Assembly: GCF_007827695.1 (NCBI RefSeq)
Contig: NZ_VITA01000005.1
Location: 62,001 to 126,000 of the forward strand
DNA from: Sinorhizobium medicae
Lineage (GTDB): Bacteria > Pseudomonadota > Alphaproteobacteria > Rhizobiales > Rhizobiaceae
DNA length: 64,000 nt
Reading direction: 5' to 3'
The notes beneath the pieces are model-generated. The model saw only the letters and a program-made list of their open reading frames with translations. It searched no databases and was not told where the DNA came from. Numbering within the stretch: position 1 is the first letter of the stretch; each line of letters starts with the position of its first letter. Position numbers and translations under genes: made by a program. Positions 39,901 through 53,824 of this stretch are shown here, piece by piece.

Positions 39901-40071
39901 GGTGTCCTGCGACGAGGCGCCGGGATAGTTCGTGTTGATCGATATCTGCGGGGGCGCGACATCCGGATACTGCGACACCGGCAATAGCGGGATCGCGATG
40001 ATGCCGGCGATCATGATGAAGATCGCCACCACCCAGGCAAAGATAGGCCTGTCTATGAAAAAACTGGGCAT
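36925..40071 (-). CDS. smeB: RND multidrug efflux transporter, inner-membrane pump (AcrB/SmeB)
   Basis: This 1048-residue HAE1-family RND pump exports drugs and plant antimicrobials through a tripartite complex. It begins MPSFFIDRPIFAWVVAIFIM, the family's standard first membrane helix. There are two large periplasmic loops and 12 predicted membrane helices. The proton-relay pair is in GILVDDAIIVVENVERIM near residue 408, with the partner Lys in IGLSAKNAILIIEFAKEL near 940. The ATG at 40071 gives the family length. It lies 10 bp after smeA; a TolC-type outer-membrane partner is not in the window. Confidence 0.95.
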   Translation of the reverse strand: MPSFFIDRPIFAWVVAIFIMIAGIIAIPLLPVSQYPDVAPPQISINTNYPGASSQDTYQSVTRLIEDELNGVEGLLYFESSTSASGSVSIDATFQPGTDPSQASVDIQNRVQRVEPRLPDPVRQQGVQVDEAGAGFLLIISLTSTDGSMDAIGLGDYLSRNVLSEIQRVPGVGRAQLFATERSMRVWLDPDKMLGLNLTAADVTAAIQAQNAQIASGSIGAQPNPITQQVTAPVVIKGQLSSPEEFGAIVLRANADGSAVRLRDVARLEIGGESYTFSTRLNGSPSAAIAVQLSPSGNAMSTSAAIKTRMDELAAFFPQGLEYSIPYDTSPFVAVSIEKVLHTLVEAVGLVFLVMFLFLQNVRYTLIPTIVVPVALLGTCAVMLAMGFSINVLTMFGMVLAIGILVDDAIIVVENVERIMSEEGLTPKDATRKAMKQITGAVIGITLVLASVFIPMAFFPGAVGVIYRQFSLTMVVSILFSALLALSLTPALCASFLKQVPKGHHHAKRGFFGWFNRGFDRTSHGYTRFVGSVIRRTGRFMIIYLILLAAMAWAFIRLPSSFLPDEDQGFVIVMMQLPSEATANRTTEVIEQTEKIFGQEPAVDTIVAINGFSFFGSGQNAGLAFVTLKDWSERDADNAAQSIAGRATMAMSQIKDAISFALSPPAIQGLGTTGGFSFRLQDRAGLGEAALAEARDQLLGLASQSKILTGVRFEGMPDAAQVSVDIDREKANTFGVTFADINSTISTNLGSSYVNDFPNAGRMQRVTVQADETKRMQPADLLNLNVRNSNGGMVPLSAFANVEWVKAPTQTVGYNGYPAVRISGEAAPGYSSGDAIAEMERLVAQLPAGFGYEWTGQSLQEIQSGTQAPLLIALSCLLVFLCLAALYESWSIPVSVIMVVPLGVIGAVLAVTMRDMPNDVYFKVGLIAIIGLSAKNAILIIEFAKELRDQGKSLIDATLEAAHLRFRPILMTSLAFTLGVLPLAIATGASSGSQRAIGTGVMGGMISATVLAIFFVPVFFVFVMKIFERGRAAPEPAKQASETVSPAE

Positions 40072-40081
40072 GATAAAATTC

Positions 40082-41290
40082 TCACTTCGCGTCGGTGGCG
40101 GGCTTTTTGCCGGCATCTGCCGACGCGCTGGCCTGTTCGGGCGCAGGCTTGGCGTTCGGATCCCAATCCGAAGGCTGCACGGGTGCGCCCGGGCCGATCT
40201 TCTGGAAGCCCTCGACGATGACCTTTTCGCCGGGCTTCAGGCCCGACGTCACCTGCCAGCGCTGGCTGACAATGCGTCCGAGAGTGACGTTGCGGAACTC
40301 CACCTTGTTGTCGGCAGTCACGACATAGACCTGCGACTGGCCGGCATTGTTGCGCTGGACCGCCTGTTGCGGAACGGTGATCGCGTCCTCTTCGAGACCT
40401 TGCTGGATTTGTACGCGGACATACATGCCGGGCAGCAGGTCATTGTTCGGATTGGGGAATTCGCCGCGCAGCGTCACCTGACCGGTCGTCGCATCGACGG
40501 CGGCTTCGGAAAAGAGCAGCTTGCCCTTGAGGGCATAGGGCGTGCCGTCATCGAGGATCAGCTGCACCTCGGCTTCGTTTTTGGAGCTCATCCACTTGCC
40601 GTCCTTGAGCGCCTTGCGCAGGCGGATCAGGTCGGTCGCGGACTGGGTGAAGTCGGCATAGATCGGGTCCAGCTGTTGGATCGTCGCGAGGTTCTGCGTA
40701 TCGTTGGTGTTGACGAGGGCGCCTTCGGTGATCAGCGCCCGGCCGATCCGGCCGCTGATCGGAGCCGTGACGTTCGTATATTGCAGATTGAGCCTGGCCT
40801 CCGCGAGACCAGCCTCGGCGATGCCGACATCGGCCTCTGCCTGGGCAAGGGTCGCTATGGCGTCGTCGTATTGCTGCACCGCTGTAACCTGCGCTTCCTT
40901 CAGCCGCGATTGGCGGTCGGCCGTTCGCCTGGCCTGATCGACCAGGGACTTGGCGCGCTTCAGCGTAGCCTCGGCGCTGTCGACCTTTACCTGGAACGGC
41001 GCCGGGTCGATGCGGTAGAGCACATCGCCTTCCTTCACCATGGTGCCCTGTTCGAACACCCGCTCGACGACGATACCTGAGATGCGCGGGCGGACCTCGG
41101 CAATCCGGGTAGCGGTGATGCGACCCGGGAGTTCGTTGGTGATCGGAAGTGGTTCGGCCTTCGTCGTGAAGACGGCGACCGGCGACGGGGGAGGGGCGGG
41201 AGCCGCGGCCTGTTCTTCATTCTTCTGGCACCCCGCGAGAAAAATCACGGTTGCCAGCGAGGCGGCCAAAATCGGTCGGTTCATGCGCAT
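40082..41290 (-). CDS. smeA: RND efflux periplasmic adaptor lipoprotein (AcrA/SmeA)
   Basis: This membrane-fusion protein has about 402 residues. A lipoprotein signal peptide ends in LAGC near residue 20, so it is probably anchored by acylated Cys. The lipoyl and barrel pieces include ITNELPGRITATRIAEVRPRISGIV, a coiled-coil hairpin (residues about 95-165), NVTAPISGRIGRALI, and QKIGPGAPVQP at the C-terminus. Several in-frame ATGs cluster at 41284-41302; I take 41290. Transcription runs on into smeB. Confidence 0.93.
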   Translation of the reverse strand: MRMNRPILAASLATVIFLAGCQKNEEQAAAPAPPPSPVAVFTTKAEPLPITNELPGRITATRIAEVRPRISGIVVERVFEQGTMVKEGDVLYRIDPAPFQVKVDSAEATLKRAKSLVDQARRTADRQSRLKEAQVTAVQQYDDAIATLAQAEADVGIAEAGLAEARLNLQYTNVTAPISGRIGRALITEGALVNTNDTQNLATIQQLDPIYADFTQSATDLIRLRKALKDGKWMSSKNEAEVQLILDDGTPYALKGKLLFSEAAVDATTGQVTLRGEFPNPNNDLLPGMYVRVQIQQGLEEDAITVPQQAVQRNNAGQSQVYVVTADNKVEFRNVTLGRIVSQRWQVTSGLKPGEKVIVEGFQKIGPGAPVQPSDWDPNAKPAPEQASASADAGKKPATDAK

Positions 41291-41401
41291 CGCAATGTCC
41301 ATATTGTCAAAGGACCGGCCGCAGCCGCGGCTTGTCGCAGCGCTGCGCGGTCCGAAAGTGAGGTGAAGCGGAGCCGGTATCGGCGTGAAAATACCGGAAA
41401 G

Positions 41402-41672: not shown

Positions 41673-42683
41673 TTATTGTCCAGACCTGATTACCCGCCCT
41701 TCCGCATCGAAACGGTGCATACTGCCGATGACAGGCGTGGCGTAGACGGTGTCGTCGGCGGCGTAGCGGTGCTCGCCGAAGAGACGCACCGTCAGCAGAC
41801 CGACAGTCTCCGATTCGATATAGATGATCGTGTCGGCTCCGAGATGCTCGACATGGATGACCTTGCCCTGCCAGTCGCCGGTTTCGCGGGAAAGGCCGAT
41901 ATGCTCCGGGCGGATGCCGATGGTCTTCGCATCTCTGTCGTCAAGCTTTGCGGCGTCGATGAGGTTCATCTGCGGCGAACCGATAAAGCCTGCCACGAAG
42001 AGGTTGGCCGGACGGTTGTAAAGCTCCATCGGCGATCCGACCTGCTCGATCCGGCCGGCATTCAGCACGACGATCTTGTCGGCAAGCGTCATCGCCTCGA
42101 CCTGATCATGGGTGACGTAGATCATCGTCGCCTTCAGGCTGCGGTGGAGGCGAGCGATCTCGAGCCGTGTGTTGACGCGCAGCGCCGCGTCGAGATTCGA
42201 CAGCGGCTCGTCGAAGAGGAAGAGTTTTGGCTCGCGCACGATCGCGCGGCCGATCGCCACGCGCTGGCGCTGGCCGCCGGAAAGTTCGGCCGGACGCCGG
42301 GCAAGGTAGGGATCGAGCGACAGCATGCCGGCAGCCTTGGCGACTTTCTCTTCGATCTCCGTCTTCGGCACACCTGCCTGCTTCAGCCCGAGGCCCATAT
42401 TGTCCCTGACCGACAGGTGCGGATAGAGCGCATAGGACTGGAACACCATGGCGATACCACGCTTCGCCGGCGCCACATGGCCGACTTCGACGCCGTCGAT
42501 CTGCACGCTTCCCGAGGTCGCGTCCTCAAGCCCGGCGATGGTGCGCAGGAGAGTCGATTTTCCGCAGCCGGAGGGACCGACGAAGATGACGAACTCGCCG
42601 TCCTTCACGTCGAGGTCGATTCCCTTCAGCACCTCATGGCTGCCGAAGGCCTTGCGGATGGATTTGAGTTGAAGTGATCCCAC
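41673..42683 (-). CDS. ABC transporter ATPase, CUT1/UgpC-MalK type
   Basis: This 336-residue sugar-importer ATPase has Walker [10 protein letters not shown] near residue 36, Q-loop [13 protein letters not shown], signature [16 protein letters not shown] near 132, Walker [13 protein letters not shown] near 152, and the switch His in [12 protein letters not shown]. The C-terminal regulatory TOBE domain has [11 protein letters not shown] near 235. Translation starts at GTG (42681-42683): AAGAGGG precedes it and the family's opening [12 protein letters not shown] follows. It is the last gene of the leftward amino-sugar operon. Confidence 0.92.
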
Positions 42684-42699
42684 GTGTCGCCCTCTTGGG

Positions 42700-43764
42700 T
42701 TAAAGCTTGACCGGCTTGCCGGTGCGCACACTTTCATCCGCGGCGAGGCAGATCTTCAGCGACTGCACCGCATCGTCCATGTGCCGGTCGAGATCGATAT
42801 CGCTCCGGATGGCCCTGAGCACGAAGTCCTGTTCGCGCTCGCAAAGCTCCTGGTGGCCCGGCTCGCCCTCCATCATCAGGTCTGCGTCGCGCTTCAGGAA
42901 CCTGCCGTCCGGGCCCGTCGCGGCGCTGTGCACGCGGATGACGGAGGTTTTCGTGTGCACGTCGATGTCGTCTGACCTGGCGTTCTGATCCATGACGATG
43001 GACACCGAGCCGTTTGGGGACATTACGTCCTTCACGAAGAAGGCCGTCTCCGAGATCATCGGCCCCCAGCCCGCTTCGTACCAGCCGATCGAGCCATCGT
43101 CGAAGATCACCTGCAGATGCCCGTAATTATACATGTCGGCGGCGATCTCGTCCGTGAGCCTCAGGCCCATGCCTCTTACTTCCACAGGCTTTGCGTCCGT
43201 GATCTGGCACATCACGTCGACATAGTGCACGCCGCAGTCGACGATGGGCGACGTGGTCTGCATCAATGATTTGTGCGTTGCCCAGGTCTGCCCGCTCGAT
43301 TGCTGGTTCAGATTCATCCGGAAGACGTAGGGGCCTCCGAGCTTGCGCCCTTCCGCGATCAGCCGCATCCAGGACGGATGGTGCCGCAGGATATAGCCGA
43401 CGACCAGCTTACGGCCATTGGCCCGCGCGCAGGCGACGACGCGCTTGGCATCGGCGACCGTCGTTGCCAGCGGCTTCTCGACGAAGACATGCGCTCCCGC
43501 CTCCATAGCCATCACGGCATAATCGGCATGTGTGTCCGAATAGGTGTTGATCGAGCAGAGCTCCGGCTTCAGCGCAGCCAGCGCCTCCGGGAACGACGGC
43601 AGAATCTCGTATGCCGCAAGTTCCTCGGGCAGTGACACTTTCGAGCGGTTGACGAGCCCGGCGACTTCGAAGCCGGGGTTCTGATGATAGGCGAGCGCGT
43701 GGCTGCGGCCCATATTGCCGAGGCCGGCGCTGAGCACGCGAATCGGGGATGCGGATGGATTCAC
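42700..43764 (-). CDS. Gfo/Idh/MocA-family oxidoreductase
   Basis: This 354-residue NAD(P)-dependent enzyme begins with a Rossmann motif ([17 protein letters not shown]). [12 protein letters not shown] near residue 98 holds the conserved EKP Lys, and [15 protein letters not shown] near 180 holds the catalytic Asp/His region. The start is GTG at 43764 with AGGAG upstream; it shares GTGA with the permease stop, so translation is coupled. Members oxidise sugars and sugar acids. Placement inside a sugar ABC operon points to a first step on the imported sugar, but the reaction is not known. Confidence 0.85.
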
Positions 43765-44600
43765 TTGACTGCTCCTGCCGTGATGCCGCGGATCAGTTGC
43801 CGCGAGAAGATGACGTAGAGGACGAGCACCGGGAAGATCGCCAGCGACAGTGCCGAGAGAACTGCGTTCCAGTTGGTGACGAACTGGCCGATGAAGATCT
43901 GCGAGCCGAGCGTGACGGTCTTGGTCGCCTCGGCCGGCGCGAGGATCAGCGGGAACCACAGGTCGTTCCAGATGGGGATCATGGTGAAGACGGCGACCGT
44001 CGCCATGGCCGGTCGGATCAGCGGCAGCACCAGCCGCAGGAAGATCGCATATTCGGACAACCCGTCGATGCGCCCTGCATTCTTCAGGTCGTCCGACACG
44101 GTGCGCATGAACTCCGACAGGATGAACACCGCGAGCGGCAGACCTTGCGCCGTATAGACGAGGATCAGCGCCGTCAGCGTATTGACGAGATCGGCCGCCA
44201 CCATGCCCTGAAGGATGGCGACCGTGCCGAGCCGGATCGGGATCATGATGCCCAACGCGAGATAGAGCCCCATCAGCGTATTGCCGCGGAAGCGGTATTC
44301 GGAAAGGGCAAAGGCTGCCATGGCGCCGAAGAGCAGGACGAGCGCGATCGAGACCACGGTGACGATGATGCTGTTCTGGAAATAGCCGACGAAGTCACCC
44401 TGTTTCAGCACCGTTTCGTAGCCGATCAGGCTGAAGGTTTCGGGTGTCGGGATTGCCAGTGGCTCCCGGAAGATCGCGTTGCGGCTCTTGAACGAATTCG
44501 CGATCGTCAGGAAGACCGGAAACAGGGCGACGAGCGTATAGGCGATCAATGCCGCGTGAACGGCGCCGATACGGATGTAGGAGGCGCGTGCTTTCGACAT
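43761..44600 (-). CDS. ABC sugar permease, MalG-type
   Basis: This 279-residue inner-membrane permease has six predicted helices. The EAA loop that contacts the ATPase is SDDLKNAGRIDGLSEYAIFLRLVLPLIRPAM near residue 185. The C-terminus [14 protein letters not shown] is typical of MalG-type CUT1 permeases. GGGAGGG precedes the ATG. It lies 12 bp after the MalF-type gene and overlaps the oxidoreductase. Confidence 0.93.
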   Translation of the reverse strand: MSKARASYIRIGAVHAALIAYTLVALFPVFLTIANSFKSRNAIFREPLAIPTPETFSLIGYETVLKQGDFVGYFQNSIIVTVVSIALVLLFGAMAAFALSEYRFRGNTLMGLYLALGIMIPIRLGTVAILQGMVAADLVNTLTALILVYTAQGLPLAVFILSEFMRTVSDDLKNAGRIDGLSEYAIFLRLVLPLIRPAMATVAVFTMIPIWNDLWFPLILAPAEATKTVTLGSQIFIGQFVTNWNAVLSALSLAIFPVLVLYVIFSRQLIRGITAGAVK

Positions 44601-44612
44601 CTTTTTCCCTCC

Positions 44613-45560
44613 CTAGAACTGATAGCGGCGCATGCGGCGCTGAATGCCGAAGAGATAAAGCGAAACGCCGGCGAGGATGATCAGGAACATGATCGCGGCG
44701 ATCGTGGCGCCCATCGACCGGTCGCCGAGTTGGAGCTGGAAGCCGAAGAAAGTGCGATAAAGGAGGGTGCCCAGGATGTCGGTCGACTTATCCGGCCCGG
44801 CAAGTGCCCCTTGCACCGTGTAGATCAGGTCGAAGGCGTTGAAATTGCCGACGAAGGTGAGGATCGAGACGATGCCGATGGCCGGAAGGATCAAAGGCAG
44901 CTTGATCTTCCAGAACTGGCTCCAGCCGGTGACGCCGTCGAGCTCCGCTGCCTCGGTCACCTCGTCCGGAATATTGAGGAGTGCCGCGTAAATCAGCATC
45001 ATCGGGATGCCGACATATTGCCAGACGGAAATCAGCGAAACGGCGATGAGCGCGGTGTCGGGTTTGCCGAGCCAGGGCGCGAATAGCGATCTCAGCCCGA
45101 CCGAATCCAGAAGGAAAGGGGCGACGCCCCAGATAGGCGACAGGATCAGCTTCCAGATGAAGCCGACGATGACGAAGGAGAGCAGCGTGGGCAGGAAGAT
45201 CGCCGTGCGGTAGAAAGCGCCGAACCGCAGCTTCGGAACGGACAGCATGGCGGCGAGAGCGATGCCGATCGGGTTCTGCACGGCCATGTGGATCAGGAAG
45301 AAGACGAAATTGTTCTTGAGCGCGTTCCAGAAATCCGCAGCCCAGCGCGGATCGCCGAAGAGCACCTTGAAATTGCCGAGGCCCACGAAGGTCAACTGGC
45401 CGTCGACCGTGTTGTACAAGGACTGACGCAGGGTCTCGACCAGCGGAAGGATCATCACCGCCGTGTAGACGACGAGCGCCGGCAACAGGAAGACGAGAAT
45501 GTGCCAGCGCCGCGGGCGCTTGATCTCGCTGACGTCGGTCAGGTTTTCGCGTGGTTTCAT
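44613..45560 (-). CDS. ABC sugar permease, MalF-type
   Basis: This 315-residue permease has six helices. It opens with HILVFLLPALVVYTAVMILPLVETLRQSLYN, the usual first helix of CUT1 MalF-type permeases. The EAA loop is EVTEAAELDGVTGWSQFWKIKLPLILPAI near residue 215. I chose the ATG at 45560, seven codons inside the longest frame. A stem-loop lies in the 237-bp gap that separates it from the binding-protein gene. Confidence 0.92.
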   Translation of the reverse strand: MKPRENLTDVSEIKRPRRWHILVFLLPALVVYTAVMILPLVETLRQSLYNTVDGQLTFVGLGNFKVLFGDPRWAADFWNALKNNFVFFLIHMAVQNPIGIALAAMLSVPKLRFGAFYRTAIFLPTLLSFVIVGFIWKLILSPIWGVAPFLLDSVGLRSLFAPWLGKPDTALIAVSLISVWQYVGIPMMLIYAALLNIPDEVTEAAELDGVTGWSQFWKIKLPLILPAIGIVSILTFVGNFNAFDLIYTVQGALAGPDKSTDILGTLLYRTFFGFQLQLGDRSMGATIAAIMFLIILAGVSLYLFGIQRRMRRYQF

Positions 45561-45797
45561 CGGCCTCTGGCCCGTTCTCAAACCGGCTGGCCAACGGGCG
45601 CAGCCTCGATATCGAAATCAGGTGCGGGACCCCTGCCGCGCACCTCGATCGTCATGATGCCAGCGGGCTTCGCGGCTCCGCCGGGACGCGCGCCGTGTTG
45701 GAGCCGGATGCCCGACACGTTCATGACGGCATTGCCCATGCGGAAACCGTTCCGCATGGGAGGGGCGCGCAAAACGGAGGCGCGCCCGCTTTCGGCC
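45561..45797 (-). other. Gap between the binding-protein and permease genes
   Basis: This gap within the leftward operon holds a strong stem-loop at 45735-45760. A short open frame covers part of it but has no family resemblance or good ribosome site, so I do not call a gene. Confidence 0.5.
45735..45760 (-). other. Intercistronic stem-loop downstream of the binding-protein gene
   Basis: CCCATGCGGAA pairs perfectly with TTCCGCATGGG around a 4-nt loop. It lies 38 bp after the binding-protein stop and is not followed by a T-run. Such hairpins commonly protect the binding-protein mRNA so that more binding protein than permease is made. Confidence 0.65.
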
Positions 45798-47057
45798 TTA
45801 TTTTACCGGCTTGAACCAGCTGTCGAGCCCGTCCTGGAGCTTCTTGGCGGCCGCCTCCGGCGTGTCTGTGCCGTTGATGACGTTGGCCGACATGACCCAG
45901 GTCTCATTCTCGAGGTTCGGGGTTCCGCGCGACAGGATCTGATAGGTCGAGCGGATGGTCGGCTTGCATTTCTCCCGCCAGGAGACGAATTCCTGGGCGA
46001 GCGGATCGGACATCTTTACCGCCGTCGAATTCAGGCTGAAGAAGCCGGGCAGGGCGTTCGCATAGATTTCCGCGAATTCCGGCGAGGCGACCCAGGTGAG
46101 GAAGGTTTTGGCGGCATCGGCATTCTTGCTCTTGGCATTGAGCCCGATGCCGATGTCGTTATGGTCGGAAATGTAGCAGGTGTCGCCGGCCTTCTTCACC
46201 GGCGGCGGAAAGGCCCCCATCTTGAATTCGGCCTGCGTGTTGAAGCCCGAGATTTCCCAGGAGCCGGCCGGATAGATGGCCGCACGGCCGAGCGTGAAGA
46301 GGTTCTGGCTGTCCGGATAGGTCTGTGCCTCGAAACCGTCGCCGAGATAATCCTTCCACTTTGCCAGTACGCGGAAAGGTTCCACCCATGGTTCGTCGGT
46401 GAGCTTCTGCTGGCCTTTCAGAAGAGCCAGACGGCCTTCCTCGCCCTTCCAGTAGGTCGGGCCGATGTTCTGGTAGCCCATCGTCGCGGCTTCCCAGAGA
46501 TCCTTGGTGCCCATCGCCATTGGAATGTAGTTGCCGTCCGCCTTGATCTTTTCGAGAACCGCGAAGAATTCCTCTTCCGTCGCCGGAATGGCGAGCCCGA
46601 GCTGGTCGAAGGCATCCTTGTTGTAGATGAAGCCGTGGATGACGGAGGCCATCGGTACGCAGAAAGTCGCCTTGCCGTCGTCTGTCGTCCAGGCGGACTT
46701 GGCGACGTCCGAGAAGTTCTCCATGCCGGAAAGACCGGTCAGGTCGGCGAGATGTTTCTTATTGTAGAGTTCGAGTGAGGCATCGAAGGGCCGACATGTG
46801 ATGAGGTCGCCCGCGGAACCGGCGTCGAGCTTGGCGTTGAGCGCGGCATTGTATTCAGTCGGGGCCGAGGGAGCGAACACCACCTTGATGCCGGGGTTCT
46901 TCGCCTCGAAGGCCGGGATCAGCTTTTCCTGCCAGATCGCCAGGTCGTCATTGCGCCAGCTTTCGATCGTCAGCGTTGCGTCCTGGGCTTGTACTAGCCC
47001 GGCCGATCCGAGAATGCTCGATGCAAGCAGTAGGCCTTTCATTGTCGTGCGGGTCAT
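45798..47057 (-). CDS. ABC sugar-binding protein, CUT1 family
   Basis: This 419-residue periplasmic protein has a signal peptide (GLLLASSILGSAGLVQAQ). The mature part follows the SBP_bac_1 pattern: WQEKLIPAFEAKNPGIKVVFAPS, then TEYNAALNAKLDAGSAGDLI, and the cleft Trp pattern AAIYPAGSWEISGF. It should bind a sugar, and the flanking murQ, kinase and nagA genes suggest an amino sugar or amino-sugar oligomer. GGGGAGAAAATGC precedes the ATG. It is the second gene of the leftward operon, after murQ. Confidence 0.92.
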   Translation of the reverse strand: MTRTTMKGLLLASSILGSAGLVQAQDATLTIESWRNDDLAIWQEKLIPAFEAKNPGIKVVFAPSAPTEYNAALNAKLDAGSAGDLITCRPFDASLELYNKKHLADLTGLSGMENFSDVAKSAWTTDDGKATFCVPMASVIHGFIYNKDAFDQLGLAIPATEEEFFAVLEKIKADGNYIPMAMGTKDLWEAATMGYQNIGPTYWKGEEGRLALLKGQQKLTDEPWVEPFRVLAKWKDYLGDGFEAQTYPDSQNLFTLGRAAIYPAGSWEISGFNTQAEFKMGAFPPPVKKAGDTCYISDHNDIGIGLNAKSKNADAAKTFLTWVASPEFAEIYANALPGFFSLNSTAVKMSDPLAQEFVSWREKCKPTIRSTYQILSRGTPNLENETWVMSANVINGTDTPEAAAKKLQDGLDSWFKPVK

Positions 47058-47114
47058 GCATTTTCTCCCCTTTTTTAGCGCTTGGTCGCGCTGTTCTGGT
47101 GCGCAGTCTATTCT

Positions 47115-48011
47115 TCAGGCCTGAACGATGGCGATCGCCCGGCGCAGATTGTGATCGGCACGCTCTAGGGCGTGTTCGGCATGGGCGGCATCCCTCGCTC
47201 CGGAGGCCAGCAGGATCGCCAGTTTGACCGAGCCGCCGGCAAGGTCGAGCAGCCTCTCCGCCTCGGCCGCGGTGACGCGGGTGATGTCGCAGACGATCCG
47301 GATTGCGCGGCCGCGCAGCTTTATGTTGTCGGCACGTAGATTGACCATGTGGCCATCGAGCACGTGGCCGAGATGGATGCCGATCATGGTCGAGAACATG
47401 TTAAAGGCGATTTTCTGAGCGGTTCCGGCGCCCATGCGCGTCGAACCGGATACGATCTCCGGCGGTGTCTCGATGAGAATTGCGACATCGGCGGCCTGGA
47501 GCAGCGGTGCGCCGGCATTGTTGGCCATGGCGATGATACGCGCGCCGCGTGTCCTGGCCTCTTCGGCAGCGGCGATTGCATAGGGCGTGAAGCCGCTGGC
47601 GGATACCGAAATCAAACAGTCGCCAGCCCCTATGCCGGCGCCCCGGACATCGAAGCGCGCAAGCTCCATATCGTCCTCGTAGCCGCCCGCAAGATCGGTA
47701 AGGCTTGCGGCCCCGCCGGCGATGAGAATGGCGATCTGTTCCCGGGCTATGCCGTAGGTGCCCGGCAGCTCGAGCGCATCCGCCATGGCCATCAGTCCGG
47801 AGCTTCCGGCGCCCGCATAGGCAAGCCGGCCGCCGGAGGCGAGGCTGTCGGCGGCAAGACGGGCCGCCGCCGAAATTGGCTCGATGGCCCGGTCCACGGC
47901 CTTCGCCGCTTCCTGTTGACCGGCTGCAAGCAATCGAAGAGCGATCTCCGGGCGCATGACGTCCAGACCCTTTGCATTGTCGTGGCGCTCTTCGGTCCTT
48001 GCTGGCTGCAT
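47115..48011 (-). CDS. murQ: N-acetylmuramic acid 6-phosphate etherase
   Basis: MurQ cleaves the lactyl ether of MurNAc-6-phosphate to give GlcNAc-6-phosphate and D-lactate. The 298-residue protein has the SIS fold: RLAYAGAGSSGLMAMADALELPGTYG near residue 60, SASGFTPYAIAAAEEA near 136, and GSTRMGAGTAQKIAFNMFSTM near 190. Two positions look unusual for the family: SASGF where the motif usually reads AASGR, and TRMGAG where it usually reads TRLKAG. The start ATG at 48011 has GAGGAG eight bases upstream. It is the first gene of the leftward operon, divergent from the kinase. Confidence 0.9.
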   Translation of the reverse strand: MQPARTEERHDNAKGLDVMRPEIALRLLAAGQQEAAKAVDRAIEPISAAARLAADSLASGGRLAYAGAGSSGLMAMADALELPGTYGIAREQIAILIAGGAASLTDLAGGYEDDMELARFDVRGAGIGAGDCLISVSASGFTPYAIAAAEEARTRGARIIAMANNAGAPLLQAADVAILIETPPEIVSGSTRMGAGTAQKIAFNMFSTMIGIHLGHVLDGHMVNLRADNIKLRGRAIRIVCDITRVTAAEAERLLDLAGGSVKLAILLASGARDAAHAEHALERADHNLRRAIAIVQA

Positions 48012-48039
48012 GCATCGTTCTCCTCTTCTGGGATTAAGG

Positions 48040-48053
48040 CCAAAAAAATACCA
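48040..48053. promoter_or_regulatory. Left arm of a 14-bp inverted repeat (candidate operator)
   Basis: CCAAAAAAATACCA here is the exact reverse complement of 48171-48184. It lies 29 bp upstream of the murQ start. ACTTGTCTAG follows directly (48053-48062), resembling half of a GntR/DasR-type box. The regulator is probably the GntR protein encoded in the same cluster. Confidence 0.55.
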
Positions 48054-48170
48054 CTTGTCTAGGAAAATTTTAACTTACAAGCGAATAAACGACGATGGGT
48101 AGAATTATACATAATAAAATCAACTCGCTAGGTGGGGAGTTAACCGGGTGGTCGAAAACTGCTTGGTTAA

Positions 48171-48184
48171 TGGTATTTTTTTGG
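48171..48184. promoter_or_regulatory. Right arm of a 14-bp inverted repeat (candidate operator)
   Basis: TGGTATTTTTTTGG mirrors the left arm exactly. It lies 24 bp upstream of the kinase start. The two arms are separated by 117 bp, flank the divergent promoters, and could be bridged by one regulator. Confidence 0.55.
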
Positions 48185-48208
48185 TATCTTGTGGTGACGG
48201 AGGTCCCC

Positions 48209-49093
48209 ATGGCGTTTTACCTGATCGGAATAGATGGCGGCGGAACGAGCTGCCGTGCGGCTGTTGCAGCCTTGGACGGCCGCGTTCTCGGCCGTGGCAA
48301 AGCGGGTGCCGCGAATATCCTCACCGATCCGGAAACCGCTCTGCAGAACATAACGGACGCGGCGCGCCGGGCCTTCGAGGATGCAGGGCTCGATCCGACG
48401 GGTATTGCGGCATCGCGGGCAATCGTAGGGGTCGCTGGCCACAATGTCGGCGACGCCGTCCATTACGTGAAGAGGCGGCTTCCCTTCGCTGCGGCTGATA
48501 TCGAGTCCGATGGGCTGATCGCGCTTCAGGGCGCCCTCGGGAACGGTAACGGAGCCGTGGCAATTCTTGGGACGGGCACGATCTATATCGCGCGCCGGGG
48601 CGATGAGGTCAGCTATATCGGCGGCTGGGGGTTCACGATCGGAGATCACGGCAGCGGCGCGCGAATCGGCCACGCGCTCCTGCAGGAGAGCTTGCTTGCC
48701 TATGACGGCATACACGAAGGCTCCGCCCTGACGGATTCCGTTCTTGCCGAGTTCAATAATGACCCCCGTGATATCGTCGATTTCGCGCGGCTTGCGAAGC
48801 CGGGCGAGTTCGGCCGCTATGCGCCGCGCGTTTTCGAGTATGCGGACCGAGGCGATCCTGTGGCTCTCGTCCTCTTGAAGGCTGCCGCCGCTACGGTAGA
48901 CGAGGCGCTCGACGTGGTCGTTTCGAGGGGAAGCAGGAAGCTGTGCCTGCTCGGAGGACTGGCACCGCTCTATCGCCGATGGCTGGCGGACCGACATCAG
49001 CCGTGTTTCGTCGAGGCTGAGGCGGACGCGTTGACGGGTGCCGTCGCGCTCGCCGCAGCCCGCTTCGGCTCCCATTCCGGGGTCCCGGCATGA
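48209..49093 (+). CDS. BadF/BadG-type ATPase-family kinase (N-acetylglucosamine/N-acetylmuramate kinase)
   Basis: This 294-residue ASKHA-fold kinase has the phosphate-1 motif YLIGIDGGGTSCRAAV at the start, GVAGHNV near residue 72, the phosphate-2 motif AILGTGTIYIARR near 118, and GDHGSGARIGHALLQ near 145. Eukaryotic NagK and clostridial MurK belong to this family. Its operon suggests it phosphorylates GlcNAc and perhaps MurNAc at C6. GGAGG lies four bases before the ATG at 48209; the upstream in-frame sequence is promoter DNA. Its stop overlaps the GntR start (ATGA). Confidence 0.88.
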   Translation: MAFYLIGIDGGGTSCRAAVAALDGRVLGRGKAGAANILTDPETALQNITDAARRAFEDAGLDPTGIAASRAIVGVAGHNVGDAVHYVKRRLPFAAADIESDGLIALQGALGNGNGAVAILGTGTIYIARRGDEVSYIGGWGFTIGDHGSGARIGHALLQESLLAYDGIHEGSALTDSVLAEFNNDPRDIVDFARLAKPGEFGRYAPRVFEYADRGDPVALVLLKAAAATVDEALDVVVSRGSRKLCLLGGLAPLYRRWLADRHQPCFVEAEADALTGAVALAAARFGSHSGVPA

Positions 49094-49854
49094 ACCAGCA
49101 GCTCGCCGCCATTTTGCCGCTCGAGACCCTGCAGTCGGGTGGCGCCGGGCCGCTTTACCTGAAGCTCAGGCAGTCGCTCGAAGAAGCGATCCTGTCGGGA
49201 AAGCTCAAACAAGGAGACGCGCTGCCGCCGGAGCGCGATCTTGCCGATTACGCCAATGTCAGCCGCGTCACCGTCCGCAAAGCGGTCGATGACCTCGTGC
49301 GCGACGGGCTTCTGGTGCGTCGCCACGGTTCCGGCACCTTCGTCGTTCGGCCCGTTTCTCGCGTCGAGCAGTCGCTCTCGCGCCTGACCTCCTTCACCGA
49401 GGACATGGTCAGGCGGGGACTCAACACACGCGCGGAATGGCTGGAGCGCGGCCTTTTTCAACCCTCGCCGGACGAGATGATGACCTTGGGGCTTGCGGCC
49501 GGCGCGCTTGTGGCGCGTCTCGGGCGGCTGCGAATTGCCGATGACATGCCGCTTGCGATCGAGCGTGCCTGTGTATCGGCGGAGTTCGTACCCGATCCGC
49601 TTGCCGTCACCTCGTCGCTCTATTCGGCGCTCGAGAAGAAGAACGCCCGGCCCGTGCGCGCTGTGCAGCGCATCTCCGCCTGCAATATAAAGGAACCGGA
49701 TGCGGCAATGCTCGGCGTCTCCGTCGGCGCCGCCGGACTTTCGATCGAGCGCGTCTCCTATCTTTCTTCCGGACGCGTGGTCGAATTCACCCGGTCGCTC
49801 TATCGAGGCGACACCTATGATTTCGTGGCGGAGCTGACGATTCCGGAGCAGTGA
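49090..49854 (+). CDS. GntR-family regulator, HutC/NagR type
   Basis: This 254-residue regulator has an N-terminal winged helix (about residues 20-88: LPPERDLADYANVSRVTVRKAVDDLVRDGLLVRRHGSGTFV) and a C-terminal UTRA effector domain (about 105-250, ending SRSLYRGDTYDF-like in FTRSLYRGDTYDFV). Relatives NagR/YvoA and DasR sense glucosamine- or GlcNAc-6-phosphate and control amino-sugar genes. It overlaps the kinase gene by 4 bp and precedes the deaminase. It probably controls both divergent operons. Confidence 0.9.
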   Translation: MNQQLAAILPLETLQSGGAGPLYLKLRQSLEEAILSGKLKQGDALPPERDLADYANVSRVTVRKAVDDLVRDGLLVRRHGSGTFVVRPVSRVEQSLSRLTSFTEDMVRRGLNTRAEWLERGLFQPSPDEMMTLGLAAGALVARLGRLRIADDMPLAIERACVSAEFVPDPLAVTSSLYSALEKKNARPVRAVQRISACNIKEPDAAMLGVSVGAAGLSIERVSYLSSGRVVEFTRSLYRGDTYDFVAELTIPEQ

Positions 49855-49890
49855 GCCGGAATGGCGGCCCCCAGTTGATTATGGAAGGAC

Positions 49891-50919
49891 ATGATGATGC
49901 AGACCAACATGCGGCGAGAAATCGACGAGATTCCCGAGGCCGCCGCCCGGCTGCTGGAGCACTCGGCCGCGGCGCTGAGCGAAGCCGGAGCGGCTCTTCG
50001 TGCCAAGGATCCGGCCTTTCTGGTGACGATCGCCCGAGGATCCTCCGATCATGCCGCGCTGTTTTTGAAATACGCGATCGAGCTCACGACAGGACGGCCC
50101 GTCGCATCGCTCGGGCCGTCGCTGGCATCGATCTACGGCGCCGATCTGAAACTCGGCGGTGCGGCGGCGATTGCGATCTCGCAGTCCGGAAAGAGCCCGG
50201 ACATCGTTGCCATGGCCGAAGCCGCGACGCGCGCAGGCGCCGTTTCGATCGCGCTGACGAACACGTTGCCTTCGCCGATCGCGGAAGCCTGCACTCACCC
50301 GCTCGACATTCTCGCAGGGCCCGAAATCGCCGTTGCGGCGACCAAGTCCTATGTCAACTCGATCGTCGCGGGTCTTGCGGTTCTCGGCGAATGGACCGGT
50401 GACGGGGCCCTGAAGCGCGCGGTCGCCGATCTCCCGAACCAGTTCGCCAAGGCGGTGAAGCTCGACTGGCAGGATTTTGCCCGAGACCTCGGAGAAGCCG
50501 AATCGCTCTATGTGCTGGGCCGCGGTCCGGCGCTCGCGATCGCCAGCGAAGCGGCGCTGAAGTTCAAGGAGACGTCCGGCATGCATGCCGAGGCCTATTC
50601 TGCCGCGGAAGTGTTGCACGGCCCGGTGGCGCTGGTCGGAGCCCGGTTCCCGGTTCTGGTGCTGGCTGCCCGCGACGCGGCAGAGACCTCGGTGGCGGGC
50701 ATCGCCGACGGCATGAGTGCCAAGGGCGCGGTCGTACACGTGACGTCCGCCCGGGCACACGACGCCAAGCGCCTGCCCTTCGTCGAGACCGGGCACCCTC
50801 TGACCGACGCATTGGCACTGATCCTGCCGTTCTATGGCTTCGTCGAGGCCTGGTCCCGCTCTCGTGGCCTCGATCCCGACGCCCCGGAAAACCTCAAGAA
50901 GGTGACGGAAACACGATGA
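49891..50919 (+). CDS. SIS-domain glucosamine-6-phosphate deaminase (NagB-II/AgaS-like)
   Basis: This 342-residue protein has two SIS domains and no glutaminase domain. The motifs are TIARGSSDHAALFLKYAIE near residue 47, AISQSGKSPDIVAMAEAA near 95, AATKSYVNSIVAGL near 150, and LKFKETSGMHAEAYSAAEVLHGP near 228. Proteins with this layout deaminate and isomerise GlcN-6-phosphate to fructose-6-phosphate. AAGGAC precedes a run of three ATGs (49891, 49894, 49897); either later one may be the real start. Its stop overlaps nagA (ATGA). Confidence 0.9.
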   Translation: MMMQTNMRREIDEIPEAAARLLEHSAAALSEAGAALRAKDPAFLVTIARGSSDHAALFLKYAIELTTGRPVASLGPSLASIYGADLKLGGAAAIAISQSGKSPDIVAMAEAATRAGAVSIALTNTLPSPIAEACTHPLDILAGPEIAVAATKSYVNSIVAGLAVLGEWTGDGALKRAVADLPNQFAKAVKLDWQDFARDLGEAESLYVLGRGPALAIASEAALKFKETSGMHAEAYSAAEVLHGPVALVGARFPVLVLAARDAAETSVAGIADGMSAKGAVVHVTSARAHDAKRLPFVETGHPLTDALALILPFYGFVEAWSRSRGLDPDAPENLKKVTETR

Positions 50920-52076
50920 ACGGGAACAAGACGATCACCGGAGCACGGGTTTTCGACGGCATCGACTGGCACGACGGCGCCGCCCTCGTGGTCGAGTCAG
51001 GGCACGTGAAGTCGATTGTGCCGGCGGGGAGCGTAGCCGTCGGTGGCGAGACCGTCGACGCCCATGGCCTGCTTCTCGTACCCGGCTTCATCGATCTTCA
51101 GGTGAATGGCGGCGGCGGCGCACTCCTGAACGAAGAACCTACCCTCGCAGGCATCCGGCAGATCTGCTCGGCGCATGCGACATTCGGTACGACGGCGCTG
51201 CTGCCGACGCTGATCACCGATACCCGCGCCGTCAGGACCGCGGCGATAGCGGCAGGCCTCGAGGCTAAAGGAGCCGCGGTGCCGGGCTTCCTCGGCCTGC
51301 ATCTCGAAGGCCCTCATCTCTCGGTCGCGCGTAAGGGGGCGCACGATCCCGCGCTGATCCGCCGGATGGAGGACGACGATCTCGCCGAGATACTTGGCTG
51401 CGCAAAGGCGCTCGGCCGCCTGATGCTGACCGTGGCGCCGGAAAATGCCACAAAGGAGCAGGTTCGGGCGCTGGCCGATGCCGGGGTCGTGGTGAGCCTT
51501 GGCCATACCGATGTGGATTACGATACCGCCCGCGCCTATGCCAAAGCGGGAGCGAGAACCGTCACGCACCTCTTCAACGCCATGAGCGGGCCTGGTCACC
51601 GTGAGCCGGGCGTTGTCGGTGCCGCTCTGGCGACGGGCGCTCTCCATGCCGGCATGATCGCCGACGGCTATCATGTCCACCCGGCTTCCATGGGCATAGC
51701 ATTGCGCGGCAAGAAGGGACCGGGGCAGATCTTTCTGGTCACCGACGCCATGTCGCCCCTCGGCACTGACCAGACGAGCTTCTTCCTCAACGGACGAAAA
51801 ATCCTGCGGCAGGACGGCCGCCTGACTCTCGCCGACGGCACCCTCGCCGGCGCCGATATCGATATGTTGTCTTCTGTTCGTTTCGTCCACCAGAGGCTCG
51901 GCCTTCCGGTCGAGGAGGCGATCCGCATGGCGTCCGCCTATCCCGCCGACGCCATGGGAATAGCCTCGCACAAGGGCCGGCTCCTGCCGGGTGCGGATGC
52001 CGATTTCGTGCTGCTCACGCCGGAGCTCGGCATCAGATCGACCTGGATCGGCGGAGAAAGAGTCTTTGCCGCTTGA
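50916..52076 (+). CDS. nagA: N-acetylglucosamine-6-phosphate deacetylase
   Basis: NagA removes acetate from GlcNAc-6-phosphate. The 386-residue amidohydrolase shows LLLVPGFIDLQVNGGGG near residue 55, LGLHLEGPHLS near 125 with the metal Glu, SLGHTDVDYDTA near 188 with a metal His, THLFNAMSGPGHREPG near 212, and the catalytic Asp in FLVTDAMSPLG near 270. It overlaps the deaminase gene by 4 bp and closes the rightward operon. Confidence 0.95.
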   Translation: MNGNKTITGARVFDGIDWHDGAALVVESGHVKSIVPAGSVAVGGETVDAHGLLLVPGFIDLQVNGGGGALLNEEPTLAGIRQICSAHATFGTTALLPTLITDTRAVRTAAIAAGLEAKGAAVPGFLGLHLEGPHLSVARKGAHDPALIRRMEDDDLAEILGCAKALGRLMLTVAPENATKEQVRALADAGVVVSLGHTDVDYDTARAYAKAGARTVTHLFNAMSGPGHREPGVVGAALATGALHAGMIADGYHVHPASMGIALRGKKGPGQIFLVTDAMSPLGTDQTSFFLNGRKILRQDGRLTLADGTLAGADIDMLSSVRFVHQRLGLPVEEAIRMASAYPADAMGIASHKGRLLPGADADFVLLTPELGIRSTWIGGERVFAA

Positions 52077-52178: not shown

Positions 52179-52916
52179 TCAAGCCTTCGCCGCCAGAGCA
52201 TCGAGGCACGCCCGCATTGCCCTGATCTTTGCCGCGTCGGTGCGGCGACGCTCCGGCGCGGCGAATCCCATCTCCACGAGCCGCATGTCATTAGCCGGCT
52301 CAGAAGTCGAGCAGGACGAATGGACCTCGGCTATGGCGAGCCGCGGCAGGAGCGTTCCGGCCGTGTTGCTGGTGATGCCCGAACCCGGCATGATCGAGAT
52401 CCGTCCTGACGCCGCCGCGATGAGCTTTTCCAGAATTTCGACCGCTTCTGGTGCCGTTTTCGCGCCCCCCGAAGTCAGGATGCGTTCGAAGCCGAGTTCG
52501 ACGGCGATCTCCAGCGCCTCGGCGAAATCAGGCACCAGATCGAAGGCGCGGTGCAGCGTCAGCCCCATTCCCGCCGCGTGGCCGGCGAGCTTTGTCAGCA
52601 TGCGGGCGTCGAGGCGGCCGTCGGCGCGCGACGCGCCGAGCACCACGCCCGCAAGCCCGGCAGCACGTGCCGCATCGATGTCCCGGCGCATCACCTCGAG
52701 ATCGGCAGCGTCATAGACGAAATCGCCCGCCCGCGGCCGGATCATCGCATAGACAGGCACCGGCGGCATGCCGGCGGCGGACATCAGGCCGGGGCTGGGG
52801 GTCAACCCTCCGGCGCAAAGAGCCGAGCAGAGCTCGACGCGGTCCGCACCTCCGGCAACGGCTGCCTCCAGCCCGTCGGGATCGTCGACGCAGACCTCGA
52901 GCAATATCCGGTTCAT
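52179..52916 (-). CDS. cutC: CutC family protein
   Basis: This is a TIM-barrel protein of about 245 residues. ILLEVCVDDPDGLEAAVAGGADRVELCSAL at the N-terminus and LTLHRAFDLVPDFAEALE near residue 125 are CutC hallmarks. CutC was named for copper homeostasis, but its biochemical role is unsettled. AAGGGAG precedes the ATG at 52916. It overlaps the ROK gene by 4 bp (ATGA) and ends 102 bp from nagA, to which it is convergent. Confidence 0.9.
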   Translation of the reverse strand: MNRILLEVCVDDPDGLEAAVAGGADRVELCSALCAGGLTPSPGLMSAAGMPPVPVYAMIRPRAGDFVYDAADLEVMRRDIDAARAAGLAGVVLGASRADGRLDARMLTKLAGHAAGMGLTLHRAFDLVPDFAEALEIAVELGFERILTSGGAKTAPEAVEILEKLIAAASGRISIMPGSGITSNTAGTLLPRLAIAEVHSSCSTSEPANDMRLVEMGFAAPERRRTDAAKIRAMRACLDALAAKA

Positions 52917-53824
52917 GCCGATCTCCCTTCGCAACCGAGCAGCGCAGCGCCGATCAGCCCCGGCTCTACCCTACACTCGCCACGCACCACGAGCGGTCGG
53001 TCGAAGCGCCTGAGAATGCGGTCCCTCACCGTCCGGTCGATCTCGGCAAGCAGGGGTTCGGCATTGGAAAGACCGCCGCCGACCGGCACGATCGTCGCTC
53101 CGGTGATGTTGATCACCAGCGCCAATGGCGAACTCACCAGGTCGACGAAGACGTCGATCGTCCGCGCTGCCTCGGCGTTACCGTCCAGCCAGGCGTCAAT
53201 GATGTCATGACTTGAGAGTACCTTGCCATGGACCGTCTCATGGAGCCGTTCGAGCCCGCGCGCGCCGCCGACCGTATCGACGCAGCGGCTTTGGCCGCAG
53301 CCACAGGGAAAAGGCGGTACTGCTACCGGCGGATGCCCTGCGTCGGCCGCAACGGCAGGACCGTGGCCCCACTCGCCGGCGAAGCCGCCGTCGGAATTGA
53401 TCAGCCGGCCGTCGATCACCAGGCCTCCCCCGACGCCGGTGCCGAGGATGGCTCCGAAGACGATGCGGTGGCCGCGACCGGCGCCCACACCGGCTTCGGC
53501 AAGCGCGAAGCAATCGGCATCGTTGGCGATCACCACAGGCAGATGCAGGGCCGTCTCGAGCTCGGCGACGAGCTCGCGGCCGTTGATGCAGGGGATATTG
53601 GCGCATTTGATCCGGCGCGTCTCAGGATCGATTACCCCGGTGATCGATATCGCCACTCGTTCGGGCAGGCCGCCGGCTTCGTCGAGCACGGATTCCATCG
53701 CTTCGACGAAGCGGCGAAAATCGGTGAGCGGCGTCACGCGCCGGGGCAAGGGAAATATCCGGTCCGGCGAATGGGTGATGGCGCCCTTGATCGCCGAGCC
53801 GCCGATGTCGAAGCAGACGATCAT
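52913..53824 (-). CDS. ROK-family sugar kinase (NagK-like)
   Basis: This 303-residue kinase has VCFDIGGSAIKGAIT at the N-terminus, VVIANDADCFALAEAGVGAG near residue 105 with the catalytic Asp, GTGVGGGLVIDGRL near 135, and the zinc-binding PCGCGQSRCVDTVGG near 178, where the final family Glu position is Asp. ROK kinases near amino-sugar genes usually phosphorylate GlcNAc or ManNAc. The ATG at 53824 overlaps the amidase stop. It gives the cluster a second sugar kinase besides the BadF-type enzyme. Confidence 0.9.
   Translation of the reverse strand: MIVCFDIGGSAIKGAITHSPDRIFPLPRRVTPLTDFRRFVEAMESVLDEAGGLPERVAISITGVIDPETRRIKCANIPCINGRELVAELETALHLPVVIANDADCFALAEAGVGAGRGHRIVFGAILGTGVGGGLVIDGRLINSDGGFAGEWGHGPAVAADAGHPPVAVPPFPCGCGQSRCVDTVGGARGLERLHETVHGKVLSSHDIIDAWLDGNAEAARTIDVFVDLVSSPLALVINITGATIVPVGGGLSNAEPLLAEIDRTVRDRILRRFDRPLVVRGECRVEPGLIGAALLGCEGRSA

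Follow-up and report, generated by a model that had tools for sequence, protein, structure and literature searches.

Introduction

In sialic-acid operons, the Gfo/Idh/MocA enzyme YjhC/RgNanOx converts 2,7-anhydro-N-acetylneuraminic acid (2,7-anhydro-Neu5Ac) to Neu5Ac via a 4-keto intermediate with recycled NAD+, and YjhC was a dehydrogenase for which its operon had no obvious need (PMC7315737, PMC7535918). For cell-wall sugars in Agrobacterium, a further study describes entry of muropeptides via YejBEF-YepA and recycling of N-acetylmuramic acid (MurNAc) by AnmK, MupP, AmgK, and MurU (PMC9790009). In Sinorhizobium meliloti, fitness data described in another report indicate that an N-acetylglucosamine (GlcNAc) kinase and a transporter matter for GlcNAc, but not for glucosamine, as nitrogen source (PMC11378808). 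Here we analyze a locus at positions 41673–52076 of a window from Sinorhizobium medicae (the whole 64,000-nucleotide stretch of DNA under study), in which the gene of a Gfo/Idh/MocA oxidoreductase (hereafter GFO) lies within the importer operon of a putative amino-sugar catabolic cluster.

We assign a probability of roughly 0.6 to the reading that this locus serves the substrate-induced uptake and catabolism of N-acetylated amino sugars from chitin and peptidoglycan, with GFO as an accessory enzyme acting before phosphorylation. A CUT1 ATP-binding cassette (ABC) importer, dependent on a solute-binding protein (SBP), would bring in GlcNAc and probably also small chito- or muro-sugars; a BadF-type kinase would form the 6-phosphate, MurQ would strip the lactate when the sugar is MurNAc, NagA would deacetylate, and a SIS-family deaminase would then give fructose-6-phosphate. 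A GntR/UTRA protein would repress both operons of the locus via two inverted copies of the 14-mer TGGTATTTTTTTGG. GFO itself would be an NADP(H)-type enzyme with the imported sugar as its substrate, and the form that we prefer is a sugar-normalizing step: a ring hydroxyl of a modified amino sugar, for which anhydro, keto, or glycosylated forms are candidates, would be oxidized or reduced such that the product is the plain sugar accepted by the kinase, similar to the role of YjhC/RgNanOx in sialic-acid operons. The core of this pathway is ordinary, namely that of a probably GlcNAc-led amino-sugar catabolic locus widespread in Hyphomicrobiales; beyond this core, one conserved accessory redox step remains.

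Results and Discussion

GFO Is Embedded in an Importer Operon

A sequence-only reading of the window had proposed two divergent operons with murQ, a CUT1 importer, a BadF-type kinase, a GntR regulator, a SIS deaminase, and nagA, and had placed the oxidoreductase in translational coupling with a permease. An open reading frame (ORF) listing and family models recover every one of these genes at the stated coordinates:

41673..42683 (42683 approximate), minus strand: ABC importer ATPase of the UgpC/MalK type (NCBIfam UgpC subfamily 455 bits, cut-off 432; TOBE domain)
42700..43764, minus strand: GFO, Gfo/Idh/MocA oxidoreductase, 354 amino acids, GTG start (Pfam GFO_IDH_MocA and C-terminal domains)
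43761..44600, minus strand: ABC permease 2 (MSD2; Pfam BPD_transp_1)
44613..45581, minus strand: ABC permease 1 (MSD1; Pfam BPD_transp_1), precise start uncertain
45798..47057, minus strand: periplasmic SBP (Pfam SBP_bac_1; weak matches to the CPR_0540 and NgcE models)
47115..48011, minus strand: MurQ-type N-acetylmuramic acid 6-phosphate etherase (NCBIfam PRK05441 328 bits, cut-off 168)
48040..48053, minus strand: candidate operator TGGTATTTTTTTGG upstream of murQ, one of two genomic copies
48171..48184, plus strand: candidate operator TGGTATTTTTTTGG upstream of the kinase gene, the other genomic copy
48209..49093, plus strand: BadF-type amino-sugar kinase, NagK/MurK-like (Pfam BcrAD_BadFG)
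49090..49854, plus strand: GntR/HutC-type regulator with UTRA domain (Pfam GntR and UTRA)
49891..50919, plus strand: SIS-family glucosamine-6-phosphate deaminase, NagB-II-like (NagB_SO3506 275 bits, under the cut-off of 430)
50916..52076, plus strand: NagA, N-acetylglucosamine-6-phosphate deacetylase (TIGR00221 284 bits, cut-off 226)

On the minus strand, the gene order is murQ, SBP, permease 1, permease 2, GFO, ATPase; the CUT1 set is complete, with an SBP, a pair of permeases, and an ATPase of the MalK/UgpC type that carries a TOBE domain. The divergent plus-strand operon reads kinase, GntR, SIS, nagA, with four-base overlaps between kinase and GntR as well as between SIS and nagA. The start of the ATPase was set at the GTG that corresponds to the MGSL start in relatives. 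A longer ORF listed for GFO begins within the permease gene, and the gene was therefore set as given above. The coupling is real at the level of sequence: on the minus strand (...GTC AAG TGA...), the GTG start of GFO overlaps the stop codon of permease 2 by four bases (GTGA). With the permease frame checked, this start-stop overlap recurs in 68 of the 80 named relatives (GTGA in 41, ATGA in 27); the remaining 12 are spaced differently, mostly by 76–476 nt and by 476 nt at most. These 80 loci rank highest among 586 confirmed relatives found with the GFO alignment and were hence selected for having GFO, which gives more weight to the reverse comparison from the importer given below.

GFO has the features of a Gfo/Idh/MocA enzyme: a Rossmann domain, the C-terminal domain of the family, the lysine of the EKP motif, and the D..GxH motif. 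The catalytic residues E94-K95-P96, D174, and H178 are identical in all 21 rows of alignment A4, from which one divergent copy was left out. This copy (L069:4130-5209, from the 2.6 Mb assembly G094) has a very long branch, and its motif reads EEP instead of EKP; it has probably lost the catalytic lysine although the importer remains. An arginine after the second strand, R38, is found in 20 of the 21 rows; at the aligned position, PmdC, which uses NADP, has GRR, and GnnA as well as 3e18 have an acidic residue. The alignment with PmdC suggests NADP(H) as the likelier cofactor of GFO. Compared with Ensifer aridi, the closest named locus on the importer tree (94% identity over the joined importer proteins; 58 loci), the ratio of nonsynonymous to synonymous substitution rates (dN/dS) is 0.10 for GFO and 0.04–0.19 for the nine other cluster genes, a codon-level signature of purifying selection on GFO.

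Distribution of GFO and of the Cluster

All 24 same-genus genomes, including that of the window, contain a GFO ortholog (85–93% identity in the 23 others), and permease, GFO, and ATPase are adjacent in all 20 same-genus loci examined, the window's own included: this adjacency is not chance. The cluster extends across Hyphomicrobiales, including Sinorhizobium, Rhizobium, Mesorhizobium, and Phyllobacterium. Among the 80 named loci, SBP and both permeases are found in 80, the ATPase in 79, the kinase in 79, GntR in 78, the SIS gene in 51, murQ in 50, and nagA in 50; a few loci are cut by contig ends, so that absences there are upper estimates. One of these loci, L168, lies on a contig titled Bacillus subtilis SK6B4 and is a typical Hyphomicrobiales importer locus; the assembly is most likely contaminated or mislabelled.

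In the reverse direction, starting from the importer instead of GFO, 77 of 151 genomes of the family have the importer permease at E <= 1e-100. GFO is on the same contig in 72 of these; 63 copies lie no more than 30 nt from the permease, and the largest distance is 718 nt. The remaining five (G105, G074, G159, G077, G169) have a complete cluster that reads nagA-SIS-GntR-kinase / murQ-SBP-permeases-ATPase and is devoid of GFO, and GFO-like genes (E <= 1e-60) occur in them only elsewhere in the genome, on another branch. On the tree of importer proteins, these five genomes occupy about four positions, two of which lie in unresolved forks. GFO is an accessory gene that was lost, or not acquired, several times, and the five clusters provide ready natural comparisons. 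G132 has murQ, kinase, GntR, SIS, and nagA, but neither importer permease nor GFO at the thresholds used.

In a class-wide sample, 15 of 289 genomes, the window's included, have GFO homologs at E <= 1e-100, and the loci of 13 of the 14 others were examined. Seven distant loci (L204–L210) have GFO between permease and ATPase as in the window; the copy in G315 (L209) carries an internal TAA. In four further genomes of the class (L211–L214), GFO belongs to the kinase operon, where it comes after nagA in the same orientation, and in the two of these where the position is visible (L212, L213) there is no GFO between permease and ATPase. L215 and L216 show no cluster. The four nagA-linked copies form a branch of their own (support 93/89, a little short of the program's star mark), apart from the importer-coupled clade (100/100). 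GFO is thus tied to one pathway at two different places, which argues that it works in this pathway and is not retained by inertia. The opposite view, that GFO is a passenger of the operon without any role in the pathway, would agree with the scattered absences and with the lack of a detectable dependence on MurQ described below; the purifying selection on GFO, the overlap retained in most loci, and the second, differently placed association speak against it, and we hold it to be very unlikely.

GlcNAc Is the Safer Candidate for Main Substrate

The sequence-only reading had seen in this locus a route specifically for MurNAc or a lactyl-bearing sugar. In its strict form, this would mean that the locus mainly scavenges MurNAc, with ABC importer and kinase replacing the MurP phosphotransferase system (PTS) and with GFO modifying a MurNAc derivative. 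MurQ is the natural starting point for this proposal: its gene is the first in the importer operon, it is present at E <= 1e-60 in 62 of the 77 importer genomes and in all 11 cluster-linked loci examined outside the family, and it aligns over residues 6–293, close to its full length, with solved MurQ 4lzj (E 9e-47), whereby the two catalytic glutamates of the DAxE and GxED motifs are both matched by glutamates. Of three MurQ models, PRK05441 is passed, while TIGR00274 (222 of 302 bits) and PRK12570 (233 of 255 bits) are not. Yet the 15 importer genomes without a close MurQ all keep importer and GFO, several Rhizobium genomes (G189, G191, G192) have no MurQ anywhere at E 1e-30, and among the ten cluster genes none has a dN/dS above that of MurQ (0.19). 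Moreover, all five importer genomes that lack GFO have MurQ. A test for a dependence of GFO on MurQ detected none: MurQ is present/absent in 57/15 genomes with GFO vs 5/0 without (Fisher p 0.58). As far as these few cases show, GFO and MurQ vary independently.

Kinase and SBP favor GlcNAc as well. The kinase scores 104 bits against GlcNAc kinase 1zc6 vs 56 bits against MurNAc/GlcNAc kinase 8zo3. For the model of the SBP (mean pLDDT 84), the five best solved Foldseek matches are chitin-oligosaccharide binding chains (21–22% identity), with AcbH, raffinose, and other receptors close behind; these predicted folds are only a hint at a link to chitin. Additionally, AnmK exceeds its cut-off in 142 of the 151 family genomes and is present in that of the window, and being nearly universal it already provides anhydro-MurNAc with a route. 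A replacement of AnmK by GFO was also tested, and the two show no complementary pattern: AnmK is found in all five GFO-less genomes and in 71 of 72 with importer-linked GFO, the exception (G082) being a 76% complete genome with a fragment.

The S. meliloti orthologs of this cluster are presumably SMc02869–SMc02878, and the GapMind resource is reported to list SMc02869, SMc02871, SMc02872, and SMc02873 as the GlcNAc transporter of the fitness study. A literature search by locus tag returned nothing for SMc02870 and, for the neighboring tags, one table row in which SMc02873 is a sugar-binding protein. The word meliloti does not occur in the main text of PMC9007349.

Taken together, the 15 of 77 genomes without a close MurQ, the kinase match, the SBP folds, and the S. 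meliloti fitness data lead us to prefer GlcNAc over MurNAc as the safer main substrate, and a dedicated MurNAc pathway appears unlikely. We infer that uptake of free amino sugars for catabolism describes the locus better than wall recycling does. In two of the genomes, those of Rhizobium leguminosarum (L105) and Brucella pseudintermedia (L100), the importer locus lacks murQ and a second GntR-SIS-nagA set, 42–53% identical to that of the window, lies elsewhere (L201, L202); it may complete the GlcNAc route of these genomes.

A Conserved Inverted Motif between the Operons

Comparison of 79 intergenic regions (one locus of the 80, which shows no kinase match, was set aside) yielded the 14-mer TGGTATTTTTTTGG, which is present in 75 of them. 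At up to one mismatch, it occurs twice in the 6.53 Mb genome of the window: both copies are exact, inverted relative to each other, and located in the murQ-kinase intergenic region, 28 bases upstream of the murQ start and 24 bases upstream of the kinase start. Among the named loci, 28 of the 30 that lack murQ and 48 of the 50 that have it contain an exact copy somewhere in the sequence examined. None of 10 distant cluster-linked loci scanned (of 11; L210 was left out) has the exact motif, and near matches such as TGGTATTTAATTGG are found in several of them. TGGTATTTTTTTGG is the best candidate for the operator of the GntR/UTRA protein. A NagR-type operator, TGGTNTANACCA, was also considered; it has one site in the window and none in the murQ-kinase intergenic region.

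Possible Reactions of GFO

The model of GFO (mean pLDDT 83.5; weakest around 150–157 and 230–240) matches DgpA1, scyllo-inositol dehydrogenase, aldose-aldose oxidoreductase, GenD2/KanD2, SqgA, and GnnA. Since the best 50 fold matches listed are only 14–22% identical, the reaction cannot be read off from these solved relatives. In a protein search with the GFO alignment (at least 8000 candidates), the 120 listed carry only generic names or none, save one labelled inositol 2-dehydrogenase. Literature searches on MurNAc ABC import and on MocA with muramic acid or 3-keto sugars, with subscription journals largely uncovered, gave no description of the GFO step among the matches listed.

The presence of SqgA among the best folds (8qc2, 8qc5, 8qc8; TMq 0.75–0.78) raises the question whether GFO could be an oxidoreductive glycosidase of the GH109/SqgA type, which would cleave an imported amino-sugar disaccharide and supply an otherwise absent hydrolase. 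Neither the ORF listing nor Pfam reveals a glycosidase among the cluster genes, phmmer aligns GFO end to end with 8qc3 and 8qc2, and the fold of the SBP resembles oligosaccharide receptors. Against this, identity to SqgA is only 17–20%, in a profile search the alignment with SqgA and GH109 (6t2b) is confined to the N-terminal part, and five complete clusters manage without GFO, which makes such a function rather improbable.

Tentatively, GFO might work as a simple dehydrogenase or reductase on an oxidized amino sugar, e.g., a soil-derived 3-keto or aldonic form, apart from any MurNAc chemistry. Intact catalytic residues and the NADP-type motif would fit this, as would the relatives of the subfamily in other catabolic clusters, one of which was scanned (L055) and has an NMT1-type importer and an amidohydrolase. 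Two same-genus genomes (G023, G016) also have a paralogous cluster (L022, L023), whose SBP and importer are 71–74% and whose GFO is 52–53% identical to those of the window; it also holds a DeoR regulator, a xylose-isomerase-like TIM barrel, BtpA, and a second SBP, shows no kinase or murQ match within 18 kb, and might handle a similar sugar without phosphorylation. No direct evidence points to an oxidized substrate, the coupling to the importer is equally expected under the other readings, and paralogous GFO genes in other clusters revealed no substrate.

By its logic, YjhC/RgNanOx is the best precedent for GFO. Pursuing this analogy to the cell wall, GFO might, without consuming ATP, open the bridge of 1,6-anhydro-MurNAc or of a different anhydro amino sugar: it would oxidize C4, which bears the only free ring hydroxyl of 1,6-anhydro-MurNAc, with a bound nicotinamide cofactor; the acidified C5-H would permit β-elimination of the C6-O bridge, water would be re-added, and C4 would be reduced again. 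Ordinary MurNAc would then pass to the kinase and MurQ. If true, the cell wall would have its own version of the YjhC/RgNanOx reaction, and AnmK a redox-neutral counterpart in GFO; considering the near-universal AnmK, the retention of GFO without a close MurQ, and the lack of NADP+ use by YjhC, we regard this specialization as very doubtful.

Weighing the Proposed Pathway

Several observations count against the pathway proposed at the outset, in which GFO normalizes an imported amino sugar for the kinase. By sequence, the SBP is closer to raffinose-type RafE (78 bits) than to chitin protein 7ehp (53 bits), and both SBP and GFO are only 14–23% identical to the listed solved proteins, too low to fix a substrate. 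The kinase stays under the equivalog cut-off of Shewanella NagK (SO3507 type; 193 of 370 bits) and is for this reason named NagK/MurK-like only; likewise, the SIS protein misses the cut-off for Shewanella NagB-II (SO3506 type), so that we call it NagB-II-like only. The reversed control pattern of TGGTATTTTTTTGG also occurs twice in the genome; two sites are therefore about what chance would give, and the number of sites is no evidence by itself; position, inversion, and conservation count. The five complete clusters without GFO make it dispensable for the core route. YjhC is reported to work with NAD+ and not with NADP+, a mismatch with the cofactor motif of GFO (PMC7315737, PMC7535918), and the fitness passages on S. 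meliloti leave the genes unnamed (PMC11378808). The link of those genes to this cluster is our own assumption.

On the other side, the SIS protein is related to solved glucosamine-6-phosphate deaminase 8eol (E 1e-60), and NagA clears the equivalog cut-off of TIGR00221, but not that of the narrower PRK11170 (284 of 483 bits). Of the claims of the sequence-only reading, that of an ABC importer and a separate kinase feeding amino-sugar catabolism holds up, as does the position of the oxidoreductase outside the textbook MurNAc and GlcNAc routes. Its restriction to MurNAc or a lactyl sugar has lost ground through the independent occurrence of MurQ and GFO, the widespread AnmK, the kinase match, and the chitin-type folds of the SBP, and its undescribed pathway shrinks to the one accessory redox step of GFO, the core route being ordinary amino-sugar catabolism.

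The Hyphomicrobiales that carry the cluster live on soil in which chitin of fungi and wall debris of bacteria are plentiful. That most of the importer operons examined include a redox enzyme would mean either that a modified amino sugar is common in soil or that a known sugar takes a missed step.

Two neighboring regions complete the picture. Just past nagA, a CutC-family gene and a ROK kinase gene (Pfam; 52179–52916 and 52913–53824, minus strand) overlap by four bases. CutC is found in 13 and ROK in 11 of the 80 named loci; in L079 and L085 the two come directly after the importer ATPase. CutC may thus have its place in amino-sugar metabolism and not in that of copper. Genes for an AcrB-type resistance-nodulation-division (RND) efflux pump and an HlyD/CusB-like membrane-fusion protein (36925–41302, minus strand) adjoin the importer operon and look unrelated to the pathway.

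Comparison with Known Systems

The GlcNAc catabolism of Shewanella (NagK, NagA, NagB-II) uses the same three enzyme families after uptake, and the NCBIfam Shewanella models match kinase and deaminase. In contrast to that system, kinase and deaminase remain under the cut-offs, an ABC importer serves for uptake, MurQ and GFO are present in addition, and the regulator is of the GntR/UTRA type. With MurQ-based MurNAc catabolism, the locus shares a MurQ that exceeds a subfamily cut-off and aligns over nearly its full length with solved MurQ; however, the cluster is without a PTS transporter, an ABC importer and a separate kinase take its place, and a close MurQ is missing from 15 of the 77 importer genomes. 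NgcEFG-type and other chitin-oligosaccharide importers resemble the present one in the five best solved matches of the SBP model and in a weak match to the NgcE model (46 bits), whose cut-off of 400 bits is far off; identity is low and RafE-type receptors rank higher by sequence.

For GFO, levoglucosan dehydrogenase and the sugar 3-dehydrogenases are comparable as Gfo/Idh/MocA sugar enzymes (NCBIfam LevoglcsnDh 46 bits), but the cut-off of 650 bits is far off and the cluster genes include no TIM-barrel partner. YjhC/RgNanOx differs from GFO by its distant sequence and by its use of NAD+, whereas the motif of GFO suggests NADP(H). What the two have in common is a dehydrogenase without obvious need adjoining a sugar transporter, and the GFO profile aligns with YjhC (6o15) over positions 6–285 (43 bits); as the case of YjhC illustrates, such stray dehydrogenases can expose a real substrate.

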